A DNA stretch of 64,000 bases from Rheinheimera sp. SA_1 (lineage in GTDB: Bacteria; Pseudomonadota; Gammaproteobacteria; Enterobacterales; Alteromonadaceae), in NCBI RefSeq assembly GCF_001669775.1, contig NZ_LXWK01000017.1, forward strand, positions 62,001 through 126,000. Reading direction: 5' to 3'. The notes below the pieces were generated by a model. That model did not search any database, had not been told where the DNA came from, and saw only the letters and a program-made list of their open reading frames with translations. Position 1 is the first letter of the stretch, and every line of letters starts with the position of its first letter. The translations under genes were made by a program, and so were the position numbers. Of the stretch, positions 6,464 to 32,534 are shown in pieces.

Positions 6464-7858
6464 ATGACCAAGCCACTGATTTTATTAATTGAAGATAATC
6501 GAGAAGTGCGGCTAAGTGCGCGTTTTATTCTGGAAGATCATGGTTTTAGCATCATGGAGCTAGAAAATCCCACTCAAGCTATCGACTATCTGCAACAGCG
6601 CTCTGCTGCTTTAATTCTGCTGGATATGAATTTTGCGCTGGATACCACTTCTGGTGACGAAGGCTTACGATTTTTGCGCTGGTTGCAACAACAACCGCAC
6701 AATATTCCGGTGGTCGCCATGACCGCCTGGTCGAATACCCAGCTTGTAGTTCAGGCAATGCAGCTGGGCGCCGGTGACTTCATCGAAAAACCCTGGCAAA
6801 ACCAACGCTTAGTGCAAGTAATTTCCCAGCAACTAAAGCTAAAAAACCTGCAGCAAAAAAACCAGCAGCTGAGTTCAGCCTTACACGACAGCGAACCTGA
6901 ACTGGTGTGGCAAAGTGCCAGCATGCAACGGCTGATACAACAATTGCAGGCGGTTGCTGCCAGCGATGCCAATATTCTGCTCACCGGCGAAAATGGCACC
7001 GGTAAAAGCCAGCTGGCACAGTTTATTCATCGTCACTCCAGTCGCAAAGCGGCGCCACTAGTCAGCGTCAATATGGGGGCGATCCCAGAAACTTTGTTTG
7101 AAAGCGAAATGTTCGGTCATAAAAAAGGCGCTTTTACCGACGCCAAAGAACAGCGTACCGGCCGTTTTACCCTGGCACAGAGCGGTTCATTATTTCTCGA
7201 TGAAATCGCCAGTTTGCCGTTGCCACAACAAGCAAAATTATTGCGGGTGCTGGAATCGGGGCATTACGAAGTACTGGGTTCCAGTGTCACCGAACAAAGT
7301 GATGTACGGTTACTCAGCGCCAGCAATGGCAACTTTGCGCAGTTAATCAGTGATGGGTTGTTTCGTCAGGATTTATATTACCGGCTGAATACGCTGGAAT
7401 TTCGGGTACCTGCCTTGCGGGAGCGGCCAGAAGATGTAGTGCCGTTGGTACGTTTTTTCCTGCAAAAACACGGACTACGTTATCAGAAAACGGCACTGCG
7501 ATTGTCAGCCGCAGCTGAAAAACAACTGCAAACTTACAGCTGGCCCGGCAATATCCGGGAGTTGAGCCATCTGATCGAACGCGCAGTGCTGCTATCTCAG
7601 AACACCGTCATTGAGCTCACTGACCTGGCTTTGCCACGCACGGTGATGGCTGAGTTCGCTGCCGGGTCGATGCAAGGGCCAGCTACAGTGCCGGAGTTAC
7701 AGAAATTGCCGATGATGACGCTAGAGCAAGCTGAATTACAGTTGATCCGGCAAGCGCTGGAGTATTGTCAGGGTAATAAACAAAAAACCGCCGACGTGCT
7801 TGGCATCACCAAATCGTCATTGTATCGCCGCTTGGAAAAATATGGCCTGGAATTCTAA
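6464..7858 (+). CDS. sigma-54-dependent response regulator (NtrC family)
   Basis: A 464-residue activator with three parts: a receiver (phospho-acceptor Asp54 in LILLDM, acidic pair E10/D11), an AAA+ domain with Walker A GENGTGKS near residue 179 and a sigma-54 contact loop reading GAFTDA rather than the textbook GAFTGA (a common natural variant), and a C-terminal Fis-type helix-turn-helix (KQKTADVLGITKSSLYRRLEKYG). AAGGAG lies seven bases before the chosen ATG. It overlaps the kinase gene by 17 bases, so they form a two-component pair. Its likely target is the sigma-54 promoter at 9277, ahead of the exporter operon (inference from position and from the paired palindromes there). Confidence 0.93.
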   Translation: MTKPLILLIEDNREVRLSARFILEDHGFSIMELENPTQAIDYLQQRSAALILLDMNFALDTTSGDEGLRFLRWLQQQPHNIPVVAMTAWSNTQLVVQAMQLGAGDFIEKPWQNQRLVQVISQQLKLKNLQQKNQQLSSALHDSEPELVWQSASMQRLIQQLQAVAASDANILLTGENGTGKSQLAQFIHRHSSRKAAPLVSVNMGAIPETLFESEMFGHKKGAFTDAKEQRTGRFTLAQSGSLFLDEIASLPLPQQAKLLRVLESGHYEVLGSSVTEQSDVRLLSASNGNFAQLISDGLFRQDLYYRLNTLEFRVPALRERPEDVVPLVRFFLQKHGLRYQKTALRLSAAAEKQLQTYSWPGNIRELSHLIERAVLLSQNTVIELTDLALPRTVMAEFAAGSMQGPATVPELQKLPMMTLEQAELQLIRQALEYCQGNKQKTADVLGITKSSLYRRLEKYGLEF

Positions 7859-11547: not shown

Positions 11548-14022
11548 ATGATTTCCAGCAAAGATTTCACCACAGCCCTTTATGCCCTGAGTAAAGCCAA
11601 AGGCTACGCCGTTACTGTGGTGCTGACGCTGGGCCTGACGCTCGGCACTTTGGTGGCAATGTTTAACCTCAATTTCCAAATTTTGGCGGCGCCGCTGCCT
11701 TATCCGGAAGAAGCTCGGTTGATAGCCGCTACAGCTGCCTGGTTAAAACCGGATGGTTCCATCAATAGGCCGGTGGCGACGCCCAAAGTCATCACGCAAA
11801 TCTACCAGCAATCGTCAGATAAACTTAGCGATCAGGCACTTTATGGCAATTCTGATTTTGCCACGCTGCGCGACCTGCCGCACTCACCCAGCATTCCACT
11901 GGTGTACACCACGCCAGGTTATATGCGGATGTATCAGATGCCGCTGTTACATGGCCGCGCTTTTAGCCGCGAGGAAGACGTCGGCAGCCAACAGCCGGTC
12001 GCAGTGATCAGTGAACGGTTGTGGCGAAGCCAATACAACGCTGATCCAGCGCTGCTTGGTCAAAAAATTCAAATCGGTCAGATTGCTTTTACCGTGGTGG
12101 GTATTGCCGCCGCCAACTTTGCTGAGCCAAAACTATTTGGCCCGGACACTGTGCATGATGTCTGGCTACCGTGGGATTTTAATGGCGGCTTTCAACTGCT
12201 CAGCCCAAGCGGGCTGAGCCGCAATCTGTATTATCTGGCGCAGCTGAAAAATGCCAACGACCGTCTGGCTTTTGAGCTGGAAGTACGGCCACAACTGGAT
12301 GCCTTGTTTCAGCAGGCACGCAGTGCAGCGAATCAAGGCGGTCCAAAATTTAGTGTCCGTTTTCATGCCACGCCGCTACGGCAAGTGCTGGAAGGCGATA
12401 GTCGGCAGGCAACGTTATGGATGCTGGCAGGCAGCCTGGTGTTATTGCTGATTGCCAGCGCCAATATCACCAATCTGATTTTATCGCGTGCCGCCAGGCA
12501 ACAGCGCACTATGACCATCCAGGCCGCACTTGGGGCGCAGCGCCATCATCTATTGGCGAATGTGTTCGCAGAGTTATGCGTTTTGATGACAGCTGCGCTA
12601 CTGCTGGCTTTTGCCATCGCACAGCTGGCGTATGTGTTACTGCAATGGTACGCCACCACTACCTTGCCCCGGCTACAGGAGCTTGGCTTCAACTTGCCAA
12701 CGATGTTGTTTGCGATGGCCATCAGCCTGCTGCTGACGCTGGGTTTTGCACAACTGATTAGCCGCCAGTTAAATTACCGCGTACTACAACAAAACCTGCA
12801 AAGTAGTGGCAAAGGCAGTGGCGTGCAAATCAGCAGCCGCATCCGCCAGTTGCTGATTTCAGCGCAGGTGATGTTAGCGGCAATGTTGTTGGTATGTGCC
12901 TGTCAGGTGTTATCACAATCACTGGCGCAGTTACGTCAGCAGATTGGTTTTGCCACGGCTGACCGCTATCAGGTTTTGCTGGAAGATATCGCTGCCAACC
13001 CGGCCAATGTAACCAGTGAAGTGCGCGCGGCACAAGAAAGGCAACGCGGTGCCGAACTGCTGCAAATTCGCGACTTGTTACTACAACATCCGGCCATTGC
13101 CGATGCATCTCTCAGTACCAATGCGCCTGTTGGTTTTAACGGAGTTTCCGCTGGTTTTGCCGCTTATCTGCGTCAAGCAAACCAGCAACAGACCCGGTTG
13201 GAAACGCGTGAAACTCGCACCGATCAGCACTATTTGCCAATGTTTGACATGCCGCTGCTGCAAGGGCGCAATTTTACCGCGCAAGAAGTAGCCAGCCAGA
13301 CACCCGTGCTGATTATAAACCAGGCGCTGGCAGAGCAACTGAGCCCGGATGGCAAGGTGCTGGGTCAACGTCTGTACGGCAGTGGCAACAACCAGGCATT
13401 CGAGATCATTGGCGTGACCGCCAACCGTTTTTTGCCTGCGGCCAGCGGCGTTGATGAATTGCCCTATCGCAGTTATAGCCCAAGAGCTGCTGACAACCTG
13501 TTGTTGCAACTCAAACCCGGCAGGCAGATTGACAAAAAAGCCCTGAATGCCTTGTTACAACAGGTATCGCCTCAGTTACGCACTCTGGACATCTATAGTA
13601 TCGAACACAATGCCAATCAGGTACTACTCCGCAGTTCGCTGGCCGCAGCTATCACCACCTCATTGGTGCTTATCAGCTTTGTACTTGCCACTATCGGCAC
13701 TTATGGCGTGTTGAGTTACAGCGTACAACTGCGCCGGTTTGAGCTGGGAGTGCGAATGGCGATTGGCGCCCGTCCCACCACTATTTTGCGCCAGTTACTG
13801 AGCGAGAATCTTAAACCTGTTGCTGCTGGTTTAGTGGTGGCGGCATTGCTGCTGGTCGCGCTTTGGTTAGGTTTGCAACACACAACATTGGTGATTGAGC
13901 TGTCGGCCGGTGGTTTTGCCCTACCTTTGCTGCTGATAGTGCTGATCACCACAGTCACCTCGCTGCTTTCGGTCTGGGACATTATCCGCAAGCCAGCCAT
14001 CTATGCATTACAAGGACAATAA
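11548..14022 (+). CDS. FtsX-like ABC permease 1 (duplicated, ADOP type)
   Basis: An 824-residue permease made of two MacB-periplasmic/FtsX units. Hydrophobic segments lie at about residues 20-40, 290-315, 335-365 and 385-410 in the first unit, and 435-460 and 700-810 in the second. A large periplasmic domain with the PVAVISERLWRSQY motif follows the first helix, and the IGARPTTILRQLL coupling-helix motif lies near the C-terminus. The start at 11548 is chosen for AAGGA(TAGG) just upstream; the frame before it is cysteine-rich and unlike the family. It is paralogous to the next two genes, and its 3' end is two bases from the next ATG. Confidence 0.9.
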   Translation: MISSKDFTTALYALSKAKGYAVTVVLTLGLTLGTLVAMFNLNFQILAAPLPYPEEARLIAATAAWLKPDGSINRPVATPKVITQIYQQSSDKLSDQALYGNSDFATLRDLPHSPSIPLVYTTPGYMRMYQMPLLHGRAFSREEDVGSQQPVAVISERLWRSQYNADPALLGQKIQIGQIAFTVVGIAAANFAEPKLFGPDTVHDVWLPWDFNGGFQLLSPSGLSRNLYYLAQLKNANDRLAFELEVRPQLDALFQQARSAANQGGPKFSVRFHATPLRQVLEGDSRQATLWMLAGSLVLLLIASANITNLILSRAARQQRTMTIQAALGAQRHHLLANVFAELCVLMTAALLLAFAIAQLAYVLLQWYATTTLPRLQELGFNLPTMLFAMAISLLLTLGFAQLISRQLNYRVLQQNLQSSGKGSGVQISSRIRQLLISAQVMLAAMLLVCACQVLSQSLAQLRQQIGFATADRYQVLLEDIAANPANVTSEVRAAQERQRGAELLQIRDLLLQHPAIADASLSTNAPVGFNGVSAGFAAYLRQANQQQTRLETRETRTDQHYLPMFDMPLLQGRNFTAQEVASQTPVLIINQALAEQLSPDGKVLGQRLYGSGNNQAFEIIGVTANRFLPAASGVDELPYRSYSPRAADNLLLQLKPGRQIDKKALNALLQQVSPQLRTLDIYSIEHNANQVLLRSSLAAAITTSLVLISFVLATIGTYGVLSYSVQLRRFELGVRMAIGARPTTILRQLLSENLKPVAAGLVVAALLLVALWLGLQHTTLVIELSAGGFALPLLLIVLITTVTSLLSVWDIIRKPAIYALQGQ

Positions 14023-27065: not shown

Positions 27066-27240
27066 CAGTTTCTCCGGAAGGAAGTGACAGCAGAACAGCA
27101 GACTAAAGGTATAGCAGGGGAAAACTGGTATTCGCCAGTGAAGCGGGAAAATAAGCGGGAGTTAAATTCGCTAAATAGCTGAATCAGAAACAAAACCAGA
27201 ATAACCGCTGGTTGCGATTTGAATTGTCAATCGACCGTAG

Positions 27241-27308
27241 GGCGCTACTCGCCGCGTTAGCGGCAGTACGCCGGATGGCGTCACTCACCGCGACAGTGGT
27301 AGTGCGCC
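27241..27308. repeat. two tandem covarying hairpins, 36-bp period
   Basis: Unit 1 (27241-27272) and unit 2 (27277-27308) fold alike: GGCG-x-YACT-C-RCC-loop-GGY-AGTR-CGCC. Stem changes are paired: TACT/AGTA versus CACT/AGTG, and GCC/GGC versus ACC/GGT. The unpaired positions (27245 and 27281; 27250 and 27286) also correspond. This is what a selected or mobile REP-like element looks like. No gene overlaps it. Confidence 0.75.
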
Positions 27309-27330
27309 GGGTGGCAACAAAAATCCACGC

Positions 27331-27369
27331 AAAAAAAGGCGGACTTGGTAAGTCCGCCGTACTTTTTTT
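27331..27369. terminator. intrinsic terminator, likely the original end of lysS
   Basis: GGCGGACT-TGGTA-AGTCCGCC has A-runs and T-runs outside the stem on both strands. It follows no intact gene. Read on the minus strand it stands 51 bp after the stop codon of the duplicated lysS tail at 27420-27452, so it probably served lysS before the islet arrived. Confidence 0.8.
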
Positions 27370-27421
27370 CATAAAATTAAAGGTTTGTGTCTGGCGCTTC
27401 GGCACCAAAGCAACCGCAATT

Positions 27422-27452
27422 AACTGCCCTGTTTATCGGTATGACGCATATG
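27422..27452. repeat. left direct repeat (att-like; lysS tail copy)
   Basis: This 31-bp stretch matches 31010-31040 at 30 positions; the difference is C27429 versus G31017. Read on the minus strand it still encodes HMRHTDKQGS and then a TAA stop, i.e. the end of lysyl-tRNA synthetase with one substitution. Confidence 0.88.
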
Positions 27453-27578
27453 TGGCTTGATCTTCAGCGGAGTATTTTTACCATATGAACTCATTCATAA
27501 ATTGCATTAAAAATGCGCTGTTGATAGTGTAGTTAATATATGGACACACAGGTATCCCACTATTTAAAGGTTTGTTAA

Positions 27579-28769
27579 ATGGACTCAATTCATGACCCGA
27601 TAAGGCACTTGCGCTATCTCCGTCAATCATTGTCACAAGATAATGAATCTATAGGGTTTTTCATATCTGCGGGGTGTCCTTTATCTGTCCCCATGGATGA
27701 AGATAAATGGCCTTTAATCCCTGATGTAGCCAATCTCACCAAATATGTAAACTCCCAGCTTGCCACTGATGTTGACTATATAAAGTTTCTTGAAGAACTC
27801 GAAAAGTCAGGAAGAAACAAAGAAAACATTGAAGAGGTATTAAGTTTCCTACGAATGTTGCTCTCTGTATCAGTTGGAGGAGACGTTAGAGGTTTAAATC
27901 AAATTCAGATTGAGGAAATTGAAAAAAAAATATGTCGTCTTATTTCTTCAAAAATTGATGTTAATCTGCCTAATGATGAGACTCCATATCATTATTTTGG
28001 AAAATGGATACGGTCCATAGACAGAAAAAATGCGATTGAGATTTTTACAACCAATTATGATTTGCTTTTAGAACAAGCCCTTGAAGAATTAGAAATACCC
28101 TATTTTGATGGATTCGTTGGAGCAAGGCGGCCATTTGTGGACCTTCGAGCGATAGAAGATAACCTAATTCCCAGCCATTGGGTGCGCTTGTGGAAGATAC
28201 ATGGATCTATAAATTGGCGCATGGAAAAATCGGGAGTGAAACATTTTGTTTATAGAGTTTCAAATATAGATCCAAATAATGTAAATATGATTTACCCATC
28301 TCACTTGAAATATGAAGAAAGTAGGAAAATGCCATATTTGGCATTAATGGATCAATTAAATAGATTTATTAGGAAAAAATCTTCATTTTTAGTAATGGCC
28401 GGTTATTCATTTAACGATGGTCACATTAATGATTTAATAATTGGCGCTCTAAAGTCAAACCCATCAGGTATGATAGTAGCTCTAATGTTCGGTAATTTTG
28501 AAGACATTGAAAACCCTTTAAAATACAATGAAGCATTCAGGTTAGCAAAAAACCAACACAATTTAAACATATGGTTTGATGACTGCGCAATTATCGGGAC
28601 AGTGAAAGGATTGTGGGTTAGAAATCCCAGAAGCGAAGATCATGACGATAGAATAACAGCATTGGTAACTCATGACGCCACGGAAAACAGATACTTTGTG
28701 AAGCTCGGTAACTTCCTAAACTTTACACAATTTCTTGTTAGAATAATTGGTTCTGACGAGGAATCTTAA
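27579..28769 (+). CDS. SIR2-family protein of a SIR2-HerA defence system
   Basis: A 396-residue SIR2_2-type protein. Visible marks are the nucleotide-binding start FFISAGCPLSVP (about residue 27), FTTNYDLLLEQAL (about 160, the conserved Asn/Asp), WKIHGSINW (about 206, catalytic His) and FLVMAGYSFNDGHINDLI (about 268). In defence systems such domains hydrolyse NAD+ when triggered. The HerA gene starts one base after the stop. AAAGG lies eight bases before the ATG. Codon use is AT-rich, unlike the flanking genes. The gene is recognised by family pattern; its specific phage trigger cannot be told from sequence. Confidence 0.92.
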   Translation: MDSIHDPIRHLRYLRQSLSQDNESIGFFISAGCPLSVPMDEDKWPLIPDVANLTKYVNSQLATDVDYIKFLEELEKSGRNKENIEEVLSFLRMLLSVSVGGDVRGLNQIQIEEIEKKICRLISSKIDVNLPNDETPYHYFGKWIRSIDRKNAIEIFTTNYDLLLEQALEELEIPYFDGFVGARRPFVDLRAIEDNLIPSHWVRLWKIHGSINWRMEKSGVKHFVYRVSNIDPNNVNMIYPSHLKYEESRKMPYLALMDQLNRFIRKKSSFLVMAGYSFNDGHINDLIIGALKSNPSGMIVALMFGNFEDIENPLKYNEAFRLAKNQHNLNIWFDDCAIIGTVKGLWVRNPRSEDHDDRITALVTHDATENRYFVKLGNFLNFTQFLVRIIGSDEES

Positions 28770-28770
28770 A

Positions 28771-30666
28771 ATGAAAAATAATGATTCAATAGTAGGTGAA
28801 GTACAAGATGTTGATGGCACAAATGTCAGTGTTCTTATATCAAAAAATTCTTTAACGGGCTTCATATATATAGATGGCCAAGGCTATAGAGTTGGTCAAA
28901 TTGGAAGTTTTGTTCGTATTCCACAGGGATATAATAATCTCTATGGAATAGTCAGTCATGTAGGAGCGAGCGCCTCACCGAAAAGTACGGAAAAATCTGA
29001 TATCATTGATAATCGTTGGATGAAAATCCAGCTAATAGGTGAAAGTGCACGTAACGGATTATTTAGTAGAGGATTGTCACAGTACCCAACTATCGGAGAT
29101 AATGTTTATATAATTTCAGAAAAAGAACTGAAAAATATATACGGGCAACCAGATGAACCGTACTTCGTCAAATTAGGTCATATAACTAATGCAGAGTCTA
29201 TCCCTGCACTGATTGATATAAATAAACTAATCACTAGACATTCTGCCGTTCTTGGTACTACTGGCTCAGGTAAATCTACAACAGTTGCAAGTATCATAGA
29301 TGCTATTTCAGATAAGAAACGATATCCATCTTCAAGAATTTTAATGTTAGATCTTCATGGTGAGTATGGACGTTCATTCAAAGATAAATCAAATCTGTTT
29401 AAGATAAACTCAGACCCTACCGCAAGAATTCCAGAGCTAGAGCTTTATATACCATATTGGGCTCTAAATTTTGAAGAGCTGATGTATGTTTGTTTTGGTG
29501 AATCATTACCAGACAAAGAAAAAAACATGCTCATGGAAAGAATTCATAAATTAAAAGTTATCAATTTAAAATCCCACCCCAAAACTGGTTGCAATGTCGA
29601 TTCTTTGAGTGTGGATTCTCCCGTCCCTTTTGATATACACAAGCTATGGTATGATTTATATATTGAGACTTATGGAACGTACTATAAGAGAGACGGGGAA
29701 AAACCTTTGGAATCATTAGCATTTGATGTTGATGATAATGGAGAACAGCTAGTGGGAAACTATAGAAATGGAATTGCACCAATATTCAAAAATGTCAAAA
29801 ATGAAAAAGACGATCCAGAAAAAATAAATCATGTTTCCAGTGCGCTAGGTGGTAGTGGTATTAATATTGGAAGATATTTAGTGACTCTTGGGGCAAGGCT
29901 CCGATTACCGAGATATAACTTTGTGTTTGATCCGACCCCATTTAGACCAGATGAACACGGAGCAATATCTGCTGACGTCGACAAGCTAATTGAAGATTGG
30001 ATAGGTTGTAAGCAACCCATAACTATTTTAGACTTATCTGGAGTGCCATCAGATATAATTAAAACTGTCGTTGGTGCGGTGTTGCGAATTATTTATGAAG
30101 CACTATTTTGGTCTAGAAACTTGTCCCAAGGTGGGAGGCATCGGCCAATACTTTTGGTTATGGAAGAAGCCCACATCTATCTTAATAATGATAAAGAAAA
30201 TATGGCCTCCATGGTTGTTGAGAGAATTGCAAAGGAAGGCAGAAAGTATGGTATTGGCGCCATGATTGTTAGTCAAAGACCTTCTGAGATAAATTCAACA
30301 ATCCTTTCACAGTGTGGGACATTTTTCGCTTTAAGACTTACAAACACACAGGACCGTGGGCATATATCTTCAGTATTATCTGATAATTTGAATGGCTTAA
30401 CCAATATGTTGCCTATCTTGAAGACTGGAGAAGCAATTATAATAGGTGAAGCTGTAAAGTTACCGATGAGGACATCCATCTCACCTTTGCCTAAGCCATT
30501 CAGACCAGATAGTCAAGATCCTGTTGTGTATGATCAATTTGCTTTAGATGATACACAGGCACCCGGTGGGTGGGGTATTGCCAACGAAGATAATCCAAAT
30601 TATTCCGAAGTTATTGAAACGTGGAGAAATCAAAATCCACGAATTAGCCGTGTTATCATTAAATAA
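28771..30666 (+). CDS. HerA-like ATPase/translocase of a SIR2-HerA system
   Basis: A 631-residue HerA-type hexameric ATPase. An N-terminal HAS-barrel-like region (about residues 1-130) precedes Walker A LGTTGSGKSTTV (about 168), LMLDLHGEYG, the Walker B segment ILLVMEEAHIYL (about 466) and VSQRPSEIN with an arginine-finger region (LRLTNTQDRGHI). Together with the adjoining SIR2 protein, such pairs form a large complex that blocks phage through NADase and nuclease or helicase activity (published SIR2-HerA/Nezha systems). The ATG at 28771 has GAGGAA upstream and follows the SIR2 stop by one base, so the two are coupled. Codon use is strongly AT-rich. Confidence 0.93.
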   Translation: MKNNDSIVGEVQDVDGTNVSVLISKNSLTGFIYIDGQGYRVGQIGSFVRIPQGYNNLYGIVSHVGASASPKSTEKSDIIDNRWMKIQLIGESARNGLFSRGLSQYPTIGDNVYIISEKELKNIYGQPDEPYFVKLGHITNAESIPALIDINKLITRHSAVLGTTGSGKSTTVASIIDAISDKKRYPSSRILMLDLHGEYGRSFKDKSNLFKINSDPTARIPELELYIPYWALNFEELMYVCFGESLPDKEKNMLMERIHKLKVINLKSHPKTGCNVDSLSVDSPVPFDIHKLWYDLYIETYGTYYKRDGEKPLESLAFDVDDNGEQLVGNYRNGIAPIFKNVKNEKDDPEKINHVSSALGGSGINIGRYLVTLGARLRLPRYNFVFDPTPFRPDEHGAISADVDKLIEDWIGCKQPITILDLSGVPSDIIKTVVGAVLRIIYEALFWSRNLSQGGRHRPILLVMEEAHIYLNNDKENMASMVVERIAKEGRKYGIGAMIVSQRPSEINSTILSQCGTFFALRLTNTQDRGHISSVLSDNLNGLTNMLPILKTGEAIIIGEAVKLPMRTSISPLPKPFRPDSQDPVVYDQFALDDTQAPGGWGIANEDNPNYSEVIETWRNQNPRISRVIIK

Positions 30667-30676
30667 GGAGATTGTT

Positions 30677-30886
30677 GTGGAAAGAGTAAGCGTTTCGTCA
30701 AGTAATATCGATTCTGTAGGATATGATGAATACTCATCGACTTTAGAAATAGCATTTCACAATGGGAGCGTGTATCAGTATTTTGACGTACCACAACAAG
30801 AATACATTGCTCTAGTAAACGCTGGCTCAGTTGGTGGGTATTTAGCGAATAACATAAAAGGTAAATACCGATATTCAAAAATATAA
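30677..30886 (+). CDS. KTSC domain small protein, 69 aa
   Basis: A GTG-started 69-residue protein, ten bases after the HerA stop, with AAGGAG exactly six bases before the GTG. It is a bare KTSC domain: VSSSNIDSVGYD, then LEIAFHNGSVYQYFDVP (with the YxY motif), and a C-terminal GGYLANNIKGKYRYSKI. The family is named after the C-terminal extension of some lysyl-tRNA synthetases and is suspected of RNA binding. The third position in the islet and the tight spacing suggest that it belongs to the SIR2-HerA operon; it also lies tail to tail with lysS. Its role in defence is untested. The longer open frame upstream overlaps HerA and is not coding. Confidence 0.82.
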   Translation: MERVSVSSSNIDSVGYDEYSSTLEIAFHNGSVYQYFDVPQQEYIALVNAGSVGGYLANNIKGKYRYSKI

Positions 30887-30943
30887 CATTTTACTTAGGC
30901 CTCGCTTCCAAACAATTTCGAATAATGTATTAAATCAGAAAAT

Positions 30944-30976
30944 TCAAAAAAACCGGCGAAATGCCGGTTTTTATTT
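30944..30976. terminator. bidirectional intrinsic terminator
   Basis: AAACCGGC-GAAAT-GCCGGTTT with A- and T-runs on both sides ends the islet operon (plus) and present-day lysS (minus). A second small inverted repeat, AGTTCATT/AATGAACT at 30983-31004, lies between it and the lysS stop. Confidence 0.85.
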
Positions 30977-31007
30977 TACTACAGTTCATTCATCTTAATG
31001 AACTATA

Positions 31008-32534
31008 TCAACTGCCGTGTTTATCGGTATGACGCATATGCGGGAACAAAATCACATCGCGGATGCTTGGCGCATTGGCCAGTAACATCACCAGACGGTC
31101 GATGCCGATGCCCTGGCCTGCGGTTGGTGGTAAACCGTGTTCCAGTGCGGTGACGTAATCTTCGTCATAGAACATCGCTTCATCATCACCGGCGGCTTTT
31201 TGGGCTACTTGCTCGTGGAAACGTGCAGCTTGGTCTTCGGCGTCGTTCAGCTCGCTAAAACCATTGCCTAATTCACGGCCGCCAATGAAAAATTCAAAGC
31301 GGTCAGTGATTTCCGGGTTGTGGTCGTTGCGACGCGCCAATGGCGAAATCTCAGCCGGGTATTCAGTGATAAAGGTTGGTTGTAACAGCTTGGTTTCGAC
31401 CAGCTCATCAAACACTTCCATCAGAATACGGCCATGGCCATAGTTAGCTTTGACTTCAATGCCAAGCGATTTAGCAAATTCCGCCACTGCTTCGCGCGTG
31501 GTCAGTTGCTCAATCTTCACTTCCGGGTTGTAGTGCAGAATAGATTCCGTCACTGACATGCGGGCAAACGGTTGACCAAAATCAAAGGTATGACCCTGAT
31601 ACGGCACTTCAGTTGTACCCAGCACCGACAACGCCAGACCACGGAATAACTCTTCGGTTAAGTCCATCAGGTCGTTGTAATCGGCATAAGCCCAGTAGAA
31701 TTCCAGCATGGTAAATTCTGGGTTATGGCGGGTTGATACACCTTCGTTACGGAAGTTACGGTTCAGCTCAAACACTTTTTCAAAACCACCCACCACCAGC
31801 CGTTTTAAATACAGCTCTGGTGCAATCCGCAGGAACATTTGCATATCCAACGCATTGTGGTGCGTTTCAAACGGACGAGCCGAAGCGCCACCCGGAATGC
31901 TTTGCAACATCGGGGTTTCGACTTCTAAAAAGCCTTTGCTGTTAAAAAACTGCCGAATATAGGCCACAGTTTTTGAACGGATTAAAAAGGTTTTGCGCGA
32001 CTCGTCATTGACGATTAAGTCTAAATAGCGCTGACGGTAACAAGCTTCCTGATCGGTTAAACCGTGGAACTTGTCCGGCAGCGGCCGTAATGCTTTGGTT
32101 AATAAACGGATTTCGTCTAACCATACCGTGAGTTCGCCGGTCTGGGTTTTAAACAGCACACCGCTGCCACCGACGATATCGCCTAAGTCCCACTTTTTAA
32201 AACCTTCGTTGTAGACGTTTTCCGGCAGGCTATCGCGCGCCACGTACAACTGCAATTTGCCGCCAACATCTTGAATCGTGGTGAAACTGGCTTTACCCAT
32301 AATGCGGCGCAGCATCATCCGGCCAGCCACAGTCACACGAACCTTTTTCTCTTCCAGTTCTTCTTTGGTCAGATGCTCATACTCTGCATGGATCTGATCT
32401 GAAGTGGCATCGCGGCGAAAGTCATTTGGAAAGGCATTGCCCAGTTCACGCAACCCAGCCAGCTTATGTTTACGCTCAGCAATCAGTTTATTAACGTCCT
32501 GATGTTCTTCAATTGGATTGTTCTGTTCAGACAT
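31008..32534 (-). CDS. lysS: lysyl-tRNA synthetase, class II
   Basis: This 508-residue enzyme charges tRNA-Lys. An N-terminal OB-fold anticodon-binding domain (about residues 65-170, [20 protein letters not shown]) precedes the class II core: motif 2 [23 protein letters not shown] (about 265) and motif 3 [11 protein letters not shown] (about 480). It is full length for the family. AGGAAC precedes the ATG, and prfB ends 25 bp upstream, the usual prfB-lysS operon. The last ten codons lie in a direct repeat whose other copy is 3.6 kb away, so the present 3' end was probably supplied by the inserted islet while the frame was kept. Confidence 0.97.
31010..31040. repeat. right direct repeat (att-like; inside lysS 3' end)
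   Basis: This is the intact lysS copy of the 31-bp repeat. It encodes [10 protein letters not shown] and its last base belongs to the TGA stop. The partner is at 27422-27452. Confidence 0.88.

Follow-up and report, generated by a model that had tools for sequence, protein, structure and literature searches.

A 3.6-kb islet with a putative SIR2-HerA-KTSC defense operon inserted at the 3' end of lysS in Rheinheimera sp. SA_1

A small islet with genes for a SIR2-domain protein, a HerA-type ATPase, and a KTSC-domain protein is inserted at the 3' end of lysS in Rheinheimera sp. SA_1. The insertion itself is well supported by a flanking direct repeat and by the empty site of a relative, and we consider it probable that the 3.6-kb block is an integrative islet bearing a SIR2-HerA-KTSC defense operon that arrived by site-specific recombination at the end of this gene. 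The features are compiled in Table 1, with positions counted in the window, i.e., the whole stretch of 64,000 nt that was analyzed.

Table 1. Features of the islet and of the adjoining lysS gene (window coordinates)
Feature	Position	Strand	Evidence or remark
Orphan terminator-like hairpin with a 9-bp stem, flanked by T runs	27338..27358		
Orphan native lysS tail, HMRHTDKQGS-TAA	27420..27452	-	Sequence; matches G005 empty site
Left att core (distal junction), 23 bp, in orphaned native lysS tail	27430..27452	-	Identical to right core
Left non-coding islet end, upstream region of SIR2	27453..27578		
SIR2-domain protein, 396 aa, FTTNYD at 156, KIHGS at 206	27579..28769	+	Pfam SIR2_2; PADLOC PDLC04093
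HerA-type ATPase, 631 aa, GTTGSGKST at 162, LLVMEEAH at 461	28771..30666	+	Pfam DUF87/HerA_C; PADLOC PDLC04105
KTSC-domain protein, 69 aa, GTG start	30677..30886	+	Pfam KTSC, E 1.3e-24
Terminator-like hairpin, bidirectional, in the KTSC-lysS intergenic region, now 3' of lysS	30948..30972		
Islet-supplied lysS tail (HGS-TGA end), contains right att core 31018-31040	31008..31040	-	
lysS, target gene, intact, 508 aa	31008..32534	-	99% aa identity to G005

RESULTS

Two lysS tails flank the islet

The direct repeat that bounds the islet comprises 37 bp (copies at 27419-27455 and 31007-31043, 92% identity, spacing 3588), and its 23-bp core TGTTTATCGGTATGACGCATATG is exact in the left and right copies. 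When up to 3 mismatches were allowed, the core was found at just these two sites in the 5.16-Mb genome, with no third copy. In the 16 kb downstream of lysS, the best match of the lysS tail comprises 34 of 37 bases; random 37-mers from the window (n = 60) reach a maximum of 25 and a mean of 21 matches in the same 16 kb. The GC content between the two tails is 36%, versus ~44-55% in the surrounding 500-base windows, and no tRNA genes were found in the 64,000-nt window. A preliminary description of this DNA had reported a 31-bp lysS repeat (30/31) at 27422-27452 and 31010-31040, on both sides of an AT-rich block with SIR2, HerA, and KTSC genes, and had read the left copy as HMRHTDK-x-GS plus TAA. 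The match and its coordinates were reproduced, the left copy reads HMRHTDKQGS-TAA, and the gene families were confirmed (SIR2 and HerA by Pfam and PADLOC, KTSC by Pfam).

A direct repeat on both sides of a block is also what a transposon with target-site duplication would leave. This origin is scarcely credible here: the copies differ at 3 of the 37 positions and both encode a full gene end, a transposase is lacking, the repeat finder returned no inverted repeat pairing the ends, and no transposase-bearing relative with the same ends was found.

An empty site reveals the direction of the insertion

The preliminary description had proposed a comparison with relatives that lack the islet. One genome of the same genus, G005, has the empty site, in which lysS runs into a tail of the left-copy type, CAGGGtAGcTAA, followed by TAA and the same downstream flank. 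On its lysS side, it is 93.6% identical to lysS of the window up to the core; from there onward, it matches the left copy (CAGGG.AG.TAATTG) and then the window at 27198-24214 (88%) and 23984-20001 (89%). In G020, G017, and G019, lysS is followed by homologues of the 24.2- to 27.0-kb part of the window, and the islet is absent. Joining the window at the shared core yields a LysS protein of 508 residues that ends in HMRHTDKQGS-stop.

The same picture emerged from the counts of lysS tails. Among the 22 genomes of the genus, searched throughout with 1 mismatch allowed, the tail pattern occurs in two copies in this genome alone, in one copy in 18, and in none in three (G007, G010, and G018); these zero counts are not evidence, because the tail of G007 has diverged, the contig of G018 ends inside lysS, and G010 lacks a full lysS hit. 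A coding-tail repeat downstream of lysS was detected at 1 of 60 loci, which is again the locus of this genome, so that the suggested search for other cargo between two lysS tails came back empty in both data sets. The 60 loci, each with 0.5 to 16 kb downstream, stem from 60 of 98 genomes (this one, 18 of the genus, and 41 that represent other genera in the order); two weak 20- to 22-bp matches to post-stop sequence at one locus (L123) were left out of the coding-tail count.

The empty site in G005, the single tails elsewhere, and the joined frame together identify the islet as the newcomer, the left copy as the native gene end, and the right copy (HGS-TGA) as islet-borne. The HGS/QGS ending is kept in 17 other loci of the genus, all of which (17/17) stop with TAA, so the TGA is a mark of the islet's own tail. 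In 100-base bins, the identity of lysS to that of G005 is even (91-97% at the nucleotide level, 100% in the last short bin), which indicates that no donor lysS body was imported; an imported lysS tract was accordingly rejected on the comparison with G005. The earlier proposal that an element entered the end of lysS, restored it, and displaced the native tail by 3.6 kb is thus supported by the empty site. The opposite pattern, i.e., islet-free relatives that have the 31010-side sequence and the 30944 terminator and lack the left copy, was not observed.

Most LysS proteins of the genus continue past the MRP-type end that is common in the rest of the order, with an extension of the form H[TS]DK[HQ]GS, and the att core of the islet falls inside this extension.

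The scan for terminators returned 7 terminator-like sites in comparison with 3.1 expected from shuffles. The orphan terminator that had been placed at 27331-27369 stands as a hairpin with T runs (Table 1), whereas its native counterpart in G005 is just partly conserved: the hairpin is kept in part and lacks the T run, and a strict terminator scan of G005 at this site found none. By eye, REP-like GC-rich repeats are visible past the native end of lysS (27231-27312), and G005 seems to hold extra REP-like copies at the matching site.

The cargo resembles the HerA-SIR2 system Nezha

The three cargo genes are open frames without internal stops, and the SIR2-family gene lies adjacent to the gene of the HerA-type ATPase. 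The SIR2 protein matches the PADLOC model PDLC04093 (E 8e-153) and PDB entry 8w9l (E 1e-92), and the HerA protein matches PDLC04105 (E 5e-166) and 8wiv (E 9e-179); both structures derive from one complex, because several entries are common to both match lists. The motifs given in Table 1 are intact. We take FTTNYD and KIHGS to be the catalytic motifs of the SIR2 protein, and GTTGSGKST and LLVMEEAH are presumably the Walker A and Walker B motifs of HerA. The scores remained below the cutoffs of the NCBIfam models SIR2_antiphage and HerA_antiphage (60.9 versus 500; 255.3 versus 850 and 184.3 versus 800 bits).

The KTSC protein matches residues 630-696 of the 8wiv HerA chain (E 8e-13), so that the domain is fused in the characterized HerA and split off in the islet. 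In 8wiv, KTSC makes up the C-terminal portion of HerA, but it is a separate gene here, and we infer that the small protein is a detached version of this domain. Judged by its similarity to 8w9l and 8wiv, the pair of a SIR2-like NADase and a HerA ATPase corresponds to Nezha, and the cargo is, as far as sequence can tell, a split-KTSC form of this known HerA-SIR2 system. Nezha is described as depleting NAD+ in Vibrio cholerae (PMC11559045). By analogy, a HerA/SIR2 assembly of the islet would most likely hydrolyze NAD+ upon phage infection and block phage replication. HerA coupled to a KTSC gene is also described for the HerA-KTSC-endoDNase systems, in which an endoDNase replaces the sirtuin, whereas the islet has SIR2 and KTSC together (PMC9503650).

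KTSC follows HerA on its 3' side in all 21 chromosomal relatives of the cargo (8/8 close and 13/13 further ones; the close set leaves out three Pedobacter hits with 24-25% partial identity). Five of 53 plasmid records were opened, and four of them contain KTSC, which is absent from the Klebsiella record (31% HerA identity). KTSC hence seems to be a regular component of this SIR2-HerA branch. The system is sparsely distributed: HerA occurs in 1 of the 22 genomes of the genus, i.e., in this one, and at E 1e-100 in 3 of 369 genomes of the class and 7 of 398 of the phylum, this genome being counted in both, and KTSC was found in 2 of 98 genomes. No HerA was detected in viral contigs, and phages provided one distant match, annotated as a terminase. 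The KTSC domain is named after the C terminus of LysRS. A functional link between KTSC and lysS was nevertheless rejected, since LysS was not found in any of the 4- to 22-kb stretches available for the 21 chromosomal relatives and KTSC is rare; the position of KTSC beside lysS is taken as coincidence.

At least 4 of the 21 chromosomal relatives (L072, L142, L144, and L152) have a tyrosine integrase within ~3 kb of the system, which is located at tRNA-Met in L072 and next to tmRNA in L142. One plasmid relative, according to its annotation, likewise carries the system within ~3 kb of a tyrosine integrase. In L073, a Methylococcaceae metagenome-assembled genome, two recB 3' tails (6812-7076 and 13611-13875; 265 bp, 93%) flank SIR2-HerA-KTSC together with DUF2130 and PIN genes, and an apparent EF-G gene follows (by eye). 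No integrase was present among the scanned ORFs of this islet (the ORF at 13373-13645 lies outside the scan); it is a possible counterpart of the insertion at lysS. In the available stretches of all relatives but L072 and L073, no convincing gene-tail repeats were seen.

No integrase found in the islet or at lysS

Each islet ORF of 60 aa or longer either corresponds to SIR2, HerA, or KTSC or overlaps one of these genes, and none is an integrase. The islet thus lacks the integrase of its own that characterizes a self-mobile island. It shares with CIMEs the absence of integrase and transfer genes (judged from ORFs of at least 60 aa, with the three genes Pfam-scanned) and the presence of att sites as direct repeats of the target on both sides, here the 37-bp repeat with its 23-bp core and the corresponding empty site.

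Five tyrosine-recombinase hits, considered as candidate resident helpers, were obtained in the genome, none of them in the islet. They include XerC, an integron integrase, and one that, by gene order, is presumably XerD. The integron integrase (G000:C3:81260-81862, L155; TIGR02249, 470 bits, cutoff 265) is located near a contig end. On the contig that also holds the window, an integrase-family protein of 411 aa and an integrase fragment of 124 aa are encoded ~9 kb apart (G000:C17:465810-466232 and 475136-475432, L156), in a region that is a possible genomic island. The integron integrase might in principle have inserted the block as a cassette, which we regard as extremely improbable, since no attC-like end was seen by eye. 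Moreover, IntI is not known to leave a duplicated gene tail of 23-33 bp.

Neither a lysS-specific integrase that could act as a helper nor an integrase-bearing element at lysS was found in the 22 genomes of the genus, the 60 lysS loci, viral contigs, searches with the islet ends in 275 genomes of the family, plasmids, and phages. The exact lysS tail pattern had no match in viral contigs. The LysS protein had one hit there (L160), which was rejected as a lysS-targeting element: an apparent tRNA-Gly and integrase genes follow lysS (by eye), and the insertion is therefore one into the tRNA gene, not into lysS.

The non-coding ends of the islet

Non-coding stretches of ~125 and ~120 bp separate the islet genes from the cores. 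In a comparison with 275 genomes of the family, 6 of the 274 others had weak, short matches to the left end, and the right end matched 80 of these 274 (81/275 including its own genome), mostly on the hairpin at 30948-30972, a common terminator type in the family. At E 1e-5, neither end had a match in plasmids, and the right end had none in phages. The longest match common to both ends is 8 bp, a length reached by 56 of 100 shuffles, and integrase arm sites are consequently not recognizable.

The right end bears on the alternative of a Campbell-type event, i.e., a RecA-dependent or illegitimate insertion of circular or transformed DNA that bore the lysS 3' end of a related species, a terminator, and the defense operon, without any site-specific enzyme. 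The lysS-side end of the islet indeed resembles a second-hand lysS 3' end: HGS tails are found in many members of the genus, a similar AAAAACCGGC...GCCGGTTTTT hairpin follows lysS in 3 of 18 other loci of the genus (G012, G017, and G019), and 29 bases of the hairpin stretch recur exactly at another site of this genome (on contig C12), which makes this end look home-made for the group. The absence of an integrase gene fits as well. However, the homology comprises just 23-37 bp, lysS upstream of it shows no imported tract against G005, and the hairpin type is so widespread, judging from the family-wide matches of the right end, that it says little in favor of a lysS source. We therefore consider this route unlikely.

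DISCUSSION

Integration at the 3' end of a conserved gene by a tyrosine integrase is the best explanation of the observed geometry, in which the repeat is flush with the stop codon and the gene end is restored, and we infer that an enzyme of this type carried out the insertion. Recombination would have taken place with the last ~23-33 bp of lysS, while the attP of the islet would have borne a near-identical lysS end with its own TGA stop and the bidirectional terminator. The native tail, its TAA, and its terminator have thereby been displaced by 3.6 kb. Owing to the similarity of the two ends, LysRS keeps its length of 508 aa and differs in a single residue (Q to H). Counting against this explanation are that it rests on a single case, that no integrase of lysS specificity was found, that none of the other lysS loci among the 60 has a repeated coding tail and viral contigs lack the exact tail pattern, and that arm sites are not recognizable.

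As the islet has no integrase gene, the enzyme was either lost earlier, as in a CIME, or acted in trans. Loss is the core of one version of this explanation, in which the islet is the remnant of a larger lysS-targeted ICE, IME, or prophage whose integrase and transfer genes were removed by internal deletion. It agrees with the definition of CIMEs as given in PMC7563491 and with the integrases near at least 4 of the 21 chromosomal relatives; yet all other ORFs of at least 60 aa overlap the three genes and only the short non-coding ends are left, so that the deletion had to trim the element down to one operon. We hold this version to be possible, if tentatively so. A rather doubtful alternative is that the islet never had an integrase and is a minimal cassette, composed of a lysS-mimicking attP, the operon, and the bidirectional terminator, which would spread in the family through an unseen lysS-targeting integrase acting in trans. 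The recB-tail islet of L073 with its like cargo is a hint that cassettes of this kind may turn up at the ends of other genes as well.

The preliminary description had called an integrase-less insertion into the end of an essential synthetase gene unusual. This was overstated, as both halves of the claim are in print for Streptococcus. ICEs of this genus integrate at the 3' end of lysS by means of a tyrosine integrase and with direct repeats of 13 or 17 bp, and the repeats of elements with site-specific tyrosine integrases are given there as spanning 12-54 bp (PMC4701971). CIMEs, which are integrase-less, att-flanked cargo elements of 1.2-13 kb in composite islands, are likewise described for Streptococcus (PMC7563491). 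The insertion is therefore less unusual than claimed. The streptococcal lysS ICEs, as far as described, share the target gene end and short direct repeats with the islet, but they, or their decayed forms, encode a tyrosine integrase, whereas the islet of 3.6 kb does not. CIMEs share with it the att sites on both sides, a content of cargo only, and the lack of an integrase; they are described as deletion derivatives of ICEs or IMEs that move through accretion with such an element at an att site, and the islet is likened to them by its structure. Unlike the CIMEs described for Streptococcus, it resides in a gammaproteobacterium, has lysS as its target, and carries defense cargo. On this analogy, we call it a CIME-like defense islet.

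A limited literature search found no earlier report of integration at lysS in Gammaproteobacteria, and the present case extends the use of lysS as an integration site beyond the streptococci. With its clean boundaries and an empty-site relative, it exemplifies a defense system that moves as little more than an operon and an attachment site and whose landing point is the end of an essential gene. It also ties KTSC as a free protein to the C-terminal portion of a solved HerA chain.
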